Positions 6,018 to 64,000 of a stretch of DNA of 64,000 nt are shown here, in pieces. The position numbers and the translations under genes are program-made. Under the pieces are notes generated by a model. It did not search any database. It worked only from the letters and a program-made list of their open reading frames with translations, and was not told where the DNA came from. Numbering within the stretch: the first letter of the stretch is position 1; each line of letters begins with the position of its first letter. The stretch spans positions 28,168 through 92,167 of the forward strand of contig JAKQPD010000318.1 in NCBI GenBank assembly GCA_029564935.1. The letters run 5' to 3'. The stretch comes from Bacteroidota bacterium (lineage in GTDB: Bacteria; Bacteroidota; Bacteroidia; Bacteroidales; VadinHA17).

Positions 6018-6021
6018 CCAC

Positions 6022-6422
6022 AAGGCAGCCGGCCTGTAAGCCGGGTTCTGTACGGTTCAGGTATCTGCGAAAGAAATTTAAACCGTTTCCCGTCATTTAT
6101 CTTGTCATGCCATCACTGGCATGATCATACGATCTACCCCCCGGCGTCGGACGAGCAGCCCTCAATGCCGGTATACATGATCTTTCAACCCATGAGGCGT
6201 ACGGCTTCCCATGTCACCATGGAAACCGGTGAGCTCTTACCTCACCTTTTCACCTTTACCGGACAAACCCTGACGAAGGCTGACCTTCGATGGCTTTGAC
6301 CGGAAGTTATTCTCTGTTACACTACTATACCCTCGCGGATATCTACCCGTTAGGTAGCATGGTGCTCTGTGTTGCCCGGACTTTCCTTCCCGCCTGAGGC
6401 GGGACGACGGAACAGCCTGCTG
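6022..6422 (-). ncRNA. rnpB: RNase P RNA (bacterial type A)
   Basis: On the minus strand the 5' part contains GGAAAGTCCGGGCAACACAGAGCA, the middle GGTGAGGTAAGAGCTCACCGG, and the 3' part ACAGAACCCGGCTTACAGGCCGGC, all hallmark RNase P RNA segments. Ends are approximate. Confidence 0.95.
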
Positions 6423-6427
6423 CATTG

Positions 6428-6435: not shown

Positions 6436-6497
6436 CTAAATATTACAATTGCGCGCATAAGAATTTAATTTGGTTATTTTTACCGGGCTTTTTGACA

Positions 6498-7718
6498 ATG
6501 GAAATCAAGACTGAAATTTTAAATATCGATGATTATGATTATGTCCTTCCCGGAGACAGGATTGCCCAGTACCCTGTTGCCGTAAGGGACTTATCTAAAC
6601 TGCTCGTTTACAGGAATGGCAGCATCAGTAGCGATACCTTCAGAAATATAACTGAGTATCTGCCATCCGGTTCTCTTATGGTTTTCAATAACACGCGGGT
6701 AATCAGGGCCAGGCTCCTTTTTGAAAAAAATACAGGTTCAATTATCGAAATACTGCTACTTGAACCATCAGCTCCGTCAGGCTATGAGGAGATATTTGCA
6801 TCACATGGTAATGTGGAATGGAAATGCATTATCGGCAATCTGAAGAAATGGAAGAAAGGAGAACTGTCACTGACTTTTCTAACCAATGGCAGGGAGTATA
6901 AATTGACTGCATCAAGAGAAGGCCAGTCAGGTGAAGCCTGGCTGGTAAGATTCAGATGGCATCCGTCTGATATCAGTTTTGCTGAAGTAATAGGATGTGC
7001 CGGTCATATTCCCCTGCCACCGTATGTTAACAGAAAAGATGAAGATACAGATTATATAAGGTACCAGACTGTTTTCGGGAAAATGGACGGGTCTGTTGCT
7101 GCACCTACAGCCGGACTGCATTTCACAGAAAATGTTTTTGCGGATATATTAAATAAAGGTATAAGAACAACAGAAATTACGCTTCATGTAGGAGCCGGAA
7201 CTTTCAAACCGGTAAAATCGAAGGACATCAGGGATCATGTCATGCACCGTGAACATTTTTCAGTAAGCCGCGATACTCTTGAAATGCTCCTTTCGTACCA
7301 TGGCAGGATAATAGCTGTGGGAACCACAACCATCCGGACCCTTGAAAGCATCTTCTGGCTGGGGATCAGGTCACTAAATTCACCTTTATCGGGAGAAATT
7401 GATTTGTTCACCGGACAATGGGAACCATACTACACTGAAACAGAAAGACCAGTACATGAAGCACTGGATTCATTGCTGAAAAGAATGAAGGCTCACGGAA
7501 CTGATGTAATTCATGCCTCAACCGAAGTCATGATAATTCCGGGATACAGGTTCAGGATGATCCGTGGAATGGTTACAAATTTCCATCAACCGGGGAGCAC
7601 TCTCCTTCTGCTGGTATCAGCATGGGTTGGAAACGACTGGAAAAAAATATACAATTTTGCCCTCGCCAACGACTACAGATTTCTTAGTTATGGAGATAGT
7701 TCAATATTAATTAAATAA
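6498..7718 (+). CDS. queA: S-adenosylmethionine:tRNA ribosyltransferase-isomerase
   Basis: YVLPGDRIAQYPVAVRDLSKLLV, FNNTRVIRARL, APTAGLHFTE, LHVGAGTFKPVKS, NFHQPGSTLLLLVSAW. Start placed at the internal ATG 6498, because the ORF start at 6369 lies inside rnpB. Confidence 0.95.
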   Translation: MEIKTEILNIDDYDYVLPGDRIAQYPVAVRDLSKLLVYRNGSISSDTFRNITEYLPSGSLMVFNNTRVIRARLLFEKNTGSIIEILLLEPSAPSGYEEIFASHGNVEWKCIIGNLKKWKKGELSLTFLTNGREYKLTASREGQSGEAWLVRFRWHPSDISFAEVIGCAGHIPLPPYVNRKDEDTDYIRYQTVFGKMDGSVAAPTAGLHFTENVFADILNKGIRTTEITLHVGAGTFKPVKSKDIRDHVMHREHFSVSRDTLEMLLSYHGRIIAVGTTTIRTLESIFWLGIRSLNSPLSGEIDLFTGQWEPYYTETERPVHEALDSLLKRMKAHGTDVIHASTEVMIIPGYRFRMIRGMVTNFHQPGSTLLLLVSAWVGNDWKKIYNFALANDYRFLSYGDSSILIK

Positions 7719-14723: not shown

Positions 14724-14755
14724 ATGTAGGGACATGCCATGGCATGTCCCTACAT
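14724..14755. repeat. 32-nt perfect palindrome ATGTAGGGACATGCCATGGCATGTCCCTACAT
   Basis: Reverse complement is identical; related to the 63.4-63.8 kb array. Confidence 0.97.
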
Positions 14756-46200: not shown

Positions 46201-46210
46201 ATTCTATAAG

Positions 46211-46252
46211 TTTGGAGTTTGGAGTTTGGAGTTTGTAGTTTGGAGTTTGTGG
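46211..46252. repeat. Heptameric tandem repeat TTTGGAG x6
   Basis: tttggag tttggag tttggag tttgtag tttggag tttgtgg. Confidence 0.95.
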
Positions 46253-46283
46253 CCGTTCAGGTTTCGTTAACTTTCTCCTTTCT

Positions 46284-46310
46284 GATTACCGATTACCGAT
46301 TACCGATTAC
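46284..46310. repeat. Heptameric tandem repeat GATTACC x3.9
   Basis: gattacc gattacc gattacc gattac. Confidence 0.97.
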
Positions 46311-54127: not shown

Positions 54128-54195
54128 AAAGAAAAACGTATTAAAAAACGTATTAAAAAACGTATTAAAAAACGTATTTTAATACGTTTTTCTTT
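54128..54195. repeat. 12-nt tandem repeat (RAAAAACGTATT x4) forming the left side of a terminator-like hairpin
   Basis: Copies at 54131, 54143, 54155 and 54167, then tt, then AATACGTTTTTCTTT (54181-54195), which is perfectly complementary to AAAGAAAAACGTATT (54128-54142). Lies between convergent genes. Confidence 0.95.
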
Positions 54196-61183: not shown

Positions 61184-61603
61184 ATGAATGGTGATCTGAC
61201 ATTTGCTATTATAAAACCCAATGCCGTAAGGACAGGCAAGTCCGGACCGATCCTGGCTATGATAAATGAAGCCGGCTTTGAGATCACGGGTTTAAAAATG
61301 ATTATGCTTACCACACAGCAGGCTGAAAATTTTTATGATGAACACAGAGACAAGCCCTTTTTTGAGGGGTTGATCGAGTTCATGACTTCGGGACCGGTAA
61401 TTGTTATGATACTCAGACGTGAAAATGCAGTAGAGGAATTCAGGAACCTTCTCGGCAATACCGATCCTGAAAAAGCTGAACCGGGAACTATACGGAAAAT
61501 ATATGCCATATCTGTAAGGATGAATGCGGTTCATGGCTCCGAAAGTGACGAAAGTGCACGGAGAGAAGCTGATTTCTTCTTCTCAGACATAGAAAGATTC
61601 TAA
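61184..61603 (+). CDS. ndk: Nucleoside-diphosphate kinase
   Basis: LTFAIIKPNAVRTGKSGPILAMINEAGFEITGLKM, HRDKPFFEGLIEFMTSGPVIVMILRRENAVEEFR, active-site MNAVHGSESDESARREADFFF. Confidence 0.96.
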   Translation: MNGDLTFAIIKPNAVRTGKSGPILAMINEAGFEITGLKMIMLTTQQAENFYDEHRDKPFFEGLIEFMTSGPVIVMILRRENAVEEFRNLLGNTDPEKAEPGTIRKIYAISVRMNAVHGSESDESARREADFFFSDIERF

Positions 61604-61624
61604 AAATACCGATCTCATATTATT

Positions 61625-63373
61625 ATGATTACTGAAACAGCTGTTGACTTTTCCGATCAAAGGACCCTAGAAAAGTACTCCTCAGCTTTTACCCTCTCCG
61701 ATATGGAGATATTCATTTTTCCCGAGCTGTTCTATCCTCTTGTTCTCGCAAATATCATGTCGCCCGTTATCTGGGAATGGAGAAAGGACCCATGGTTCAA
61801 TGATATAGAGAAAAAGAGTTTTAATTATAAAATTAACAGGATCAAGCAGTTCATTATCCAGAACTATGTTTTTAACCTCGATCTGTCTACCTGGGGCCTC
61901 ACAACAAAAAGCCGTGAGATTGAAAGATTCAGGGATTTCTTCGACATGGATATGCTGAAGCAGTCAAATGCACTTTTCGGGTACGAGGGTGATAAATACT
62001 ACTTTGATATTGATATCAGGAAGCACTTCGGACTGGACAAATTCAATACGGATGTGATCCCGTACTGGAAGACCGAGACTGTTGAGGCGATGACAGCTTT
62101 CAGATACAAAGATAATTTTACTACAGGCGCAGGCGAATGCGTCTCGCTATCAGCGCTGTACGCTGCAGCCATATTTATTATAGCCAGGATACCTCTCGAA
62201 AAAATATTCCTCATAGCCACACCGCTGCATTCGCAAAATTTCATTCCCGAAAAGGAAGGTATTATAACCAATAACCGCAGAATAGTCACAAAAAACATGT
62301 GGTTTAACGGTACTTCCCTTTCCGAAAAGGCAAGAAGAGCCCTGGAAAATGAGAAAGTAACAATAGTAAGCCATATTTCAGGATACATTCATACAGTCAA
62401 TGAGACTGCCACAATCGACAGGAAATCCTATGAATATTTTTCAAAAAAGCTCAGGGACTTCCTCCGTACAGATCTTACTCCGGAAGTATTTATAAATTTT
62501 CTAAGATTCAAATCAAAGTATAAATCACTTTTCCAGGTTGTGTGTGAATGTTCGGGTATCAAACGGTATATCACTCTTGAAAAAATGTTTGAATATGAAC
62601 ACACAAGCAAATACAGTGTATCTGCTGAAACAAGGGACCTTCTGATCAAAGAGATCGAAGGAGATGAATTTCATCTCAGCCCCTTTCCGGGGAAGATCTT
62701 TCTTCATCAGGCAGAGGATATACTTAAGGAAAATACCGGAAGGAGCATTCAGGAGCTTGAGAAACAATTCCTGGAACTGAATTCTGATATCCGGCCCGGG
62801 GCAATAACAGAACTGTTCAGGGATATTTCAACGTTTATTGTAACCGAGCCCAGGTTACCGGATGTAGCTAAAAATTATCTTCCGTCCGTTTCACCGGAAA
62901 TAACACTTGAGGATACACGTGAAAAAATTGTGACAAAAATTCATCGTCTTTCCGCGAAATCCGAAACAGCGCTTCTGACGTTATATGTTTACAGGCAGAT
63001 GGACATGACAGACTGGAAGCCGTTCATCAAAGCGGCAATTGAGCGGAATCCCGTTTGTTTTGACGATCTGAACGGCAGAAGCATAAAAGAAGTATCTGTC
63101 ATTCTTGAGAAACTGCACAATGAATCAATTTATGACGGCCAGCGACTGGCTTTGCCTGATGAAGTCTGGAATTTCTGCCGCGGTGACGGAATCGAGAAAG
63201 CATTCCTTCTTGCCGATTTCATAATTAAAAAAGATCCTTCTGCAGAATTATCTGTTACAATAGATAACAGGAATGTTATTCTGAACCATGGAGGTAATGA
63301 TTACCGGTTCATATCACATAAAAATCTCAGGAAAACAATCCGTATCCGGGGGAATAATTACGAAATCGTATAA
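61625..63373 (+). CDS. Conserved hypothetical protein with transglutaminase-like Cys/His segment
   Basis: 582 aa; GAGECVSLSALYAAAIFIIARIPLEKIFLIATPLHSQNFI resembles the Cys...His core of transglutaminase-like proteases. Family assignment uncertain. Confidence 0.6.
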   Translation: MITETAVDFSDQRTLEKYSSAFTLSDMEIFIFPELFYPLVLANIMSPVIWEWRKDPWFNDIEKKSFNYKINRIKQFIIQNYVFNLDLSTWGLTTKSREIERFRDFFDMDMLKQSNALFGYEGDKYYFDIDIRKHFGLDKFNTDVIPYWKTETVEAMTAFRYKDNFTTGAGECVSLSALYAAAIFIIARIPLEKIFLIATPLHSQNFIPEKEGIITNNRRIVTKNMWFNGTSLSEKARRALENEKVTIVSHISGYIHTVNETATIDRKSYEYFSKKLRDFLRTDLTPEVFINFLRFKSKYKSLFQVVCECSGIKRYITLEKMFEYEHTSKYSVSAETRDLLIKEIEGDEFHLSPFPGKIFLHQAEDILKENTGRSIQELEKQFLELNSDIRPGAITELFRDISTFIVTEPRLPDVAKNYLPSVSPEITLEDTREKIVTKIHRLSAKSETALLTLYVYRQMDMTDWKPFIKAAIERNPVCFDDLNGRSIKEVSVILEKLHNESIYDGQRLALPDEVWNFCRGDGIEKAFLLADFIIKKDPSAELSVTIDNRNVILNHGGNDYRFISHKNLRKTIRIRGNNYEIV

Positions 63374-63397
63374 TTATATTTTTTTATCATGGTAGAT

Positions 63398-63773
63398 GTA
63401 GGGCCACGCCATGGCGATGTGTGTAGGGCCACATCATGGGATTGTAGGGCCACGCAATTGGATGGTAGGCTACATCATGGGATTGTAGGGCCACGCCATG
63501 GCGATGTGTGGGGGGCACATCATTGGATTGTAGGGCCACGCCATGGCGATTGTAGGGCCACGCAATTGGCGATTGTAGGGCCACGCAATTGGATTGTAGG
63601 GCCACACAATTGGATTGTAGGCCACACCATGGGATTGTAGGGCCACACCATGGCGATGTGTGGGGGGCACATCATTGGATTGTAGGGCCACGCCATGGCG
63701 TGGCCCTACGGGTACATGGGGATACATACGTAAGGACATGCCATGGCATGTCCCTACCATGGCATGTCTCTAC
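63398..63773. repeat. Palindrome-derived repeat array (GTAGGGCCACGCCATGG half-units, 20-25 nt period, ending in full palindromes)
   Basis: Unit starts at 63398, 63423, 63444, 63465, 63485, 63510, 63530, 63552, 63575, 63596, 63617, 63637, 63662 and 63682. Complete 28-nt palindrome 63682-63709; second-variant palindrome 63730-63757 with one mismatch; right-arm half-unit 63758-63773. Confidence 0.95.
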
Positions 63774-63877
63774 CATGGAATAATCCAATAAAATAACCCC
63801 GGCAATTCATTAAACGTCAATGCAGATTATTACAGGACCCCGATCAATTAATAATTAAATCAGATCTTATGTAGAAA

Positions 63878-64000
63878 TTATCGCAAAACAATATCCTTTA
63901 TTACCTCCGTCCCTGATCTTGCATTCAGCTTTTCTTTCAACGCCTGACGGAGCATAAGAAGTTCATTCCTGACTACCGATGATTTCAGATGAACATAAAG
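63878..64000 (-). CDS. DUF721/DciA-like protein, C-terminal fragment (truncated by window edge)
   Basis: Minus-strand reading LYVHLKSSVVRNELLMLRQALKEKLNARSGTEVIKDIVLR* resembles the C-terminus of DUF721 proteins. Not in the supplied ORF track. Confidence 0.7.
   Translation of the reverse strand, partial: LYVHLKSSVVRNELLMLRQALKEKLNARSGTEVIKDIVLR

Follow-up and report, generated by a model that had tools for sequence, protein, structure and literature searches.

Half-unit arrays beside double-foot REPs in a Bacteroidota genome, best read as local tandem duplications anchored by a hairpin

Introduction

REPs are among the commonest bacterial repeats, and the way in which they come to be clustered is unsettled. 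Hairpins in general are sites of replication slippage and tandem duplication between short direct repeats, in which the hairpin stalls synthesis and microhomology guides the duplication, a process known mostly from deletions and reporter systems. Among described REPs, the closest relatives of the element reported here belong to TnpAREP subclass 2.4, which equals Bertels group 4, is common in Bacteroidota and Cyanobacteria and also occurs in scattered phyla; this subclass has “double foot” REPs, and its genes can carry a REP inserted in frame between their HUH and Tyr motifs (Quentin et al. 2018, PMC6006769). The GTAG REP superfamily and its REPtrons (Di Nocera et al. 2013, PMC3733652) comprise GTAG-tagged, RAYT-linked short palindromes that form dimers and clusters and lie downstream of genes or in the gaps between convergent ones. 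In REPIN clusters, tandem repeats extending into the flanks have been described, and a further mechanism, in addition to dispersal by RAYTs, was suggested for them (Bertels and Rainey 2011, PMC3116915).

The locus studied here lies near one end of a 64,000-nt stretch of a Bacteroidota draft genome (hereafter the window). Its palindromes resemble subclass 2.4 REPs in their GTAG foot, the CTAC at the other end and the long perfect stem, as well as in having a cognate Y1/HUH gene, which in sister species carries an in-frame REP between the HUH and Tyr motifs. Since both features are described in PMC6006769, the palindrome and the matching enzyme are of an already known type. Unlike the published examples, however, the REP in the window forms a pair with a 20-nt linker and is accompanied by a 13-unit array of its own half, and the main text of PMC6006769 makes no mention of “tandem” or “array”. 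The locus shares with the GTAG superfamily the tag, the dimeric and clustered arrangement, the RAYT link and the position relative to genes, but GTAG there is an unpaired tag at one end whereas it pairs with CTAC here, and the clusters in PMC3733652 consist of whole units plus flanking DNA rather than half-units. Similarly, whole REPINs and their flanks are repeated in PMC3116915, whereas here the breakpoint falls inside the palindrome and only a half is repeated. Compared with hairpin slippage in general, the outcome here would be long arrays of half-palindromes extending outward from members of a natural repeat family. REPs, RAYTs, insertion into the gene (PMC6006769) and REPIN clusters repeated together with their flanks (PMC3116915) are thus known already, while arrays of half-REPs closed by a single intact double-foot REP are provisionally regarded as new, following a negative literature search that covered mostly open-access main texts. 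Searches of the literature for the palindrome letters and for the peptide VGAGLKPAPT returned nothing relevant.

Anatomy of the array

The array and the REP pair occupy a gap of about 504 nt between two convergent genes (63374–63877), with the contig ending at 64000. The features of this region, delineated by repeat finding, TRF and a unit-by-unit split, are as follows.

61625–63373 (+): convergent gene on the upstream side, encoding 582 aa without a Pfam match, conserved across the genus
63384–63397 (+): flank upstream of the array, TTATCATGGTAGAT, source of the half-unit tails (compared side by side with unit ends)
63398–63681 (+): 13 left-half units of 20–25 nt each, starting at 63398, 63423, 63444, 63465, 63485, 63508, 63530, 63552, 63575, 63596, 63617, 63637 and 63660
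63682–63709 (no strand): P1, GTAGGGCCACGCCATGGCGTGGCCCTAC, complete 28-nt double-foot REP, perfect GTAGGG...CCCTAC
63710–63729 (no strand): linker between P1 and P2, 20 nt
63730–63757 (no strand): P2, GTAAGGACATGCCATGGCATGTCCCTAC, second double-foot REP, GTAAGG...CCCTAC, 13 of 14 pairs formed and one mismatched
63758–63773 (−): one right-half unit, CATGGCATGTCTCTAC, on the outer side of P2 and mirroring the left array
63878–64000 (−): convergent gene on the downstream side, 3' end, truncated where the contig stops, conserved across the genus

An initial annotation of this DNA had described about 13 half-palindrome units recurring every 20–25 nt and closed by one complete palindrome; the count proved to be exactly 13, and the closing 28-nt palindrome is indeed perfect. 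That annotation placed the end of the element at 63709, but the linker, P2 and the right-half unit belong to the element too. It also defined the units as a left arm plus core lacking the right arm. They are left-half units, but many overrun the dyad by up to 5 nt (GCCATGGCG), making them “left half plus a little”, and four have variant starts, namely GTGGGGGG for the units at 63508 and 63660 and GTAGGC for those at 63465 and 63617. TRF reported the left array at 63397–63698 with a period of 21 (13.9 copies, score 291) and with a period of 152 (score 506), and the right side at 63741–63778 with a 16-nt period. A 127-nt block of the array recurs 152 nt further on with 93% identity, indicating that one section of the array was copied as a whole. 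The window holds 12 copies of GTAGGGNCANNNCATG when one mismatch is allowed, whereas shuffles predict 0.22, which excludes a chance origin of the array.

Two other readings of the array were considered and rejected. The half-units directly adjoin, without unique spacers, as first described, which rules out a CRISPR array. Frames of 83 and 96 aa are open across the array but belong to no family (the 83-aa frame has no Pfam match), in agreement with the original view that no plausible protein is encoded. An Rfam search gave no match at the array. As single-stranded DNA the array folds much better than shuffles (z −7.5), which is not telling, since repeated palindrome halves fold well anyway.

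The palindromes as double-foot REPs

The sequence identifies P1–20 nt–P2 as two paired double-foot REPs (GTAG...CTAC), of the type that belongs to TnpAREP/RAYT subclass 2.4, and the REP/TnpA-REP lead of the initial annotation was therefore well founded. In comparison with REPINs and BIMEs, which unite two inverted REPs, the relative orientation of P1 and P2 is undefined because each palindrome is self-inverse. Pattern searches of the contigs, in line with the genome-wide count that had been proposed, found seven whole 28-nt GTAGGG...CCCTAC palindromes on six contigs of the same draft genome, as well as an array of four half-units on contig C21. This copy number is low compared with some Cyanobacteria, in which the general pattern matched 62–309 times (0–1 for a reversed-pattern control). 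With a stricter pattern, such elements were detected in 19 of 62 genomes of the genus. Across phyla the palindrome is nearly always 28 or 29 nt long, and its inner stem varies while pairing is preserved.

Paired palindromes recur at six places outside the window, including one in a Cytophagales MAG (L103), with linkers of 17–21 nt, mostly 20; a further pair with a 20-nt linker lies on contig C79 of the same genome. The dispersed copies in this genome and in the genus are mostly whole palindromes or pairs. Elsewhere in the window, a lone perfect double-foot REP, GTAGGGACATGCCATGGCATGTCCCTAC, is found at 14726–14753 without half-units.

A matching RAYT subfamily

The initial annotation had also suggested a search for Y1-HUH genes. 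On contig C79, the C-terminal end of a RAYT (6440–6544, −) adjoins the REP pair, whose first palindrome is identical to P1 of the window. This gene is cut by the contig end: the fragment shows WQ and YIKNNP only, with its integrity and any internal REP lying beyond the contig end, and is 60% identical over 45 residues to the RAYT of sister genome G034. In G034, a single contig carries a REP pair before (decayed), inside and after the RAYT gene, and an in-frame REP between the HUH and Tyr motifs is present in sister species G034, G031 and G017. In palindrome-rich genomes, the palindrome likewise occurs in-frame soon after MPNHxH in Y1 genes of Roseofilum (L342), Latescibacteria (L319) and a Spirochaetia MAG (L329), and in decayed form inside the reading frame of a Y1 gene in a Spirochaetaceae MAG (L330). 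A RAYT profile built from these four proteins matched 45 of the 62 genus genomes. The HUH motif MPNHxH, then WQ and, following it, YIxNNP with the catalytic Tyr are conserved in full-length members of the subfamily, and a double-foot REP lies inside the gene at 16 of 30 subfamily loci vs none of 30 other Y1 loci (P = 2e-6). Across the genus, palindromes and RAYT subfamily agree only weakly, the subfamily being found in 17 of 19 genomes with palindromes vs 28 of 43 others (P = 0.07).

The best family for five members was NCBIfam NF047646 (REP_Tyr_transpos), at 49–67 bits against a cut-off of 80, and the match falls in two stretches because the insertion splits the RAYT. The putative placement in subclass 2.4 rests instead on the published features. 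Cognate RAYTs are similarly missed or low-scoring with PF01797, since the insertion splits the domain. Y1_Tnp genes recognized by Pfam only, three in this genome (C405, C99 and C257) and at 30 genus loci, were considered as cognate and rejected, as they lie among other repeats and not GTAGGG palindromes.

These three Y1_Tnp genes (L027 on C405, L028 on C99 and L029 on C257) each lie among different dispersed repeats, e.g., GAGCCCCATAGGGGCGACCTGTTTGTAGAA around C405, and their surroundings suggest several RAYT/REP systems in one genome. In two further RAYTs of the same subfamily as the one on C79 (C415:14744–15598 and C197:264–971), the HUH and Tyr motifs are separated by long low-complexity insertions, consisting of repeated VDGTGMVDVDGM or being Q/P-rich.

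Genomic context and relatives

The 582-aa gene marks the orthologous empty site in relatives. No array was found behind any of 29 orthologues of this gene examined, and the same convergent gene pair recurs in at least 6 relatives, where the genes are no more than 117 nt apart and enclose no palindrome, so that the element is lineage-specific among the genomes examined. The initial annotation had named complete absence both from the orthologous locus and from the rest of related genomes as a finding against the array; the orthologous locus lacks it, and arrays of the same build are present on C21 of this genome and in G019 of the same genus.

Comparison of window 61184–64000 with orthologous loci L268–L296 showed the 582-aa gene in opposite orientations relative to its neighbors (a nucleoside diphosphate kinase gene and the downstream convergent gene) across species of the genus, as if this gene alone had been inverted. 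Other features of the window include a bacterial RNase P class A RNA (Rfam RF00010) at 6021–6423 (−) and short tandem repeats at 1411–1459, 46209–46310 and 54132–54178, with 7-nt units TTGGAGT, AGTTTGG and GATTACC and a 12-nt unit, AAAAACGTATTA.

Comparable arrays in other genomes

The same build, half-units followed by a whole palindrome, occurs with four half-units on C21 and with three in G019, a genome of the same genus. When 85,462 species genomes were scanned for three tandem copies of GTAGGGNCA, at least 119 stretches matched. Among the matches listed, a whole palindrome was recognized in 40 arrays, and was the last unit in all 40. By organism titles, these arrays span at least 8 phyla among the matches listed, with hosts such as Algoriphagus, Roseofilum, Calditrichaeota, Hydrogenedentes, Chitinispirillaceae, Spirochaetes, Ardenticatenales and Latescibacteria. 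About 83 of about 123 genome-contig arrays among the matches listed had no recognized whole palindrome and were left out, some being cut by contig ends or N runs, some decayed and some plain short tandem repeats. In viral contigs, 43 stretches carried GTAGGG tandems, none with a recognized palindrome, and there is hence no sign that the arrays are phage features.

In a Roseofilum sample chosen regardless of arrays, an outward half-copy lay within 60 nt of 16 of 36 REPs, and an inward one at 2. At other hairpins, an outward half-copy was seen at 1 of 41, a rough comparison since these hairpins come from different genomes. Inverted copies in the palindrome flanks were striking at a few loci and near chance in the Roseofilum sample.

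Junctions of the arrays

The palindrome-last polarity is by itself no proof of slippage, because any tandem duplication with one end inside the palindrome and the other in the flank gives the same order. Polarity being a geometric consequence, it is the junctions that carry the information, and we compared these across 39 arrays (about 37 from the genome scan, plus those of C21 and G019). In 46% of the 39 arrays, the first unit ends in 4 nt or more that also immediately precede the array, compared to 0.5% in mixed controls, which indicates that many arrays hold copies of the DNA flanking them. An exact flank match of 4 nt is absent from about half of the arrays, through decay or another origin. 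In the window, the flank (TTATCATGGTAGAT-GTAGGG) and the unit ends (CACATCATGGGATT-GTAGGG) have seven bases, ATCATGG, in common in register; this heptamer is found again in the units at 63423 and 63465, and the CATGG within it doubles as the core of the palindrome.

The inner breakpoints are located ahead of the dyad, on it or slightly beyond it, between about nt 3 and nt 18 of the 28-nt palindrome. None of the 39 falls past nt 18, a region to which uniform placement would assign about 20% (P = 2e-4). Microhomology at 13 resolved junctions averaged 3.7 nt vs 0.85 nt in a simulation with random breakpoints, a contrast to be read in light of the choice of these junctions for a clear flank match, which favors microhomology, and of outer breakpoints in the simulation that were set by the analyst.

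Origin of the half-units

As direct repeats that stand beside a whole palindrome and carry local flank DNA, the half-units look made in place. Local tandem duplication with the hairpin as anchor is the best reading of them, which would make them by-products and neither a mobile form nor a binding array. We consider it likely that a RAYT-mobilized REP pair was inserted first, and that the P1 hairpin then seeded a local tandem array by slippage. In such a scenario, a RAYT of this genome (TnpAREP, subclass-2.4 type) would have moved P1–20 nt–P2 in trans into the gap between the two convergent genes. During replication, the strand would fold as the P1 hairpin and synthesis would stall near the dyad; the nascent strand, guided by a short match between ATCATGG in the upstream flank and CCATGG in the core, would then slip back to that flank and copy “flank + left half” once more. 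Repeated slippage, followed by duplication of the 152-nt block and point mutation, would yield the 13 units, and at P2 the same process would have run outward once. We infer the mobilization from the association of a RAYT with an identical REP, and the replication slippage, as the route of duplication, from the junctions.

The RAYT could also be the builder of the array itself, nicking at or near the hairpin and rejoining strands so that REPs extend outward by half-sites. A cognate RAYT is present in the genome, TnpAREP in vitro cleaves single-stranded DNA at CT (and CA) next to REP stem-loops and rejoins it (PMC8266576), and outward half-copies are frequent at the Roseofilum REPs and rare at other hairpins, although this hairpin control was taken from other genomes. 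However, the inner breakpoints are scattered between about nt 3 and nt 18 rather than placed at fixed sites, which makes a RAYT-made array less likely than slippage, and the junctions display microhomology of variable length that a site-specific nuclease would not need. Overall, we view construction by the RAYT as unlikely. The initial annotation had proposed, among other options, an element propagating as half-sites. Half-sites do outnumber whole palindromes at the window locus, and a few lone or decayed half-like sequences exist, e.g., upstream of the pair on C79, yet most dispersed copies are complete palindromes of 28/29 nt whose stem changes are paired, and the local flank sequence within half-units implies that these were made where they are found. 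A mobile half-unit that is only sometimes completed into a palindrome is accordingly very improbable.

A functional multi-site element, be it an array bound by a dimeric protein, a structured transcript or a terminator region, would suit the position between convergent genes and the strong single-stranded fold. No evidence for the dimer-binding array proposed at the outset was found, and for the structured transcript, also proposed then, the Rfam result is empty and the fold is what palindrome-half repeats give regardless. The element is moreover absent from the matching junction in relatives, its units have diverged and consist in part of flank sequence, and arrays of other genomes differ in unit sequence and place, so that a function of this kind seems improbable. 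Finally, the locus comes from a draft assembly of 441 contigs, and its contig, C121, ends 227 nt past the last half-unit. An assembly artefact is nevertheless extremely improbable, given the substitutions and indels between units, which assembly stutter does not create, and the same build in many independent assemblies.

The half-REP junctions thus point to hairpin-anchored, microhomology-guided duplication as a local mode of growth, separate from RAYT-driven dispersal. If this is true, the arrays would offer natural length polymorphisms and a test bed for the destabilization of chromosomes by short hairpins. Half-unit growth can occur inside a RAYT reading frame: on Latescibacteria chromosome OX638377.1, the RAYT frame (L319, 967–1728) spans a half-unit array and a whole palindrome, and the array translates into KTDVGAIS/KTDVGA repeats followed by VGAGLKPAPT. 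It would be a rather doubtful extension to regard outward half-palindrome arrays at large as an active, phylum-crossing process, RAYT-assisted or hairpin-driven, in which a 28-nt element grows in place and, when inside its own transposase gene as in L319, rewrites the protein in-frame.

Within Roseofilum halophilum (L343–L379), half-copies were seen beside 29-nt REPs with a GGGTTTSAAACCC stem and at none of the 28-nt REPs with a GAACGGCCGTTC stem seen there; in this species, stem type may decide the instability of a REP.
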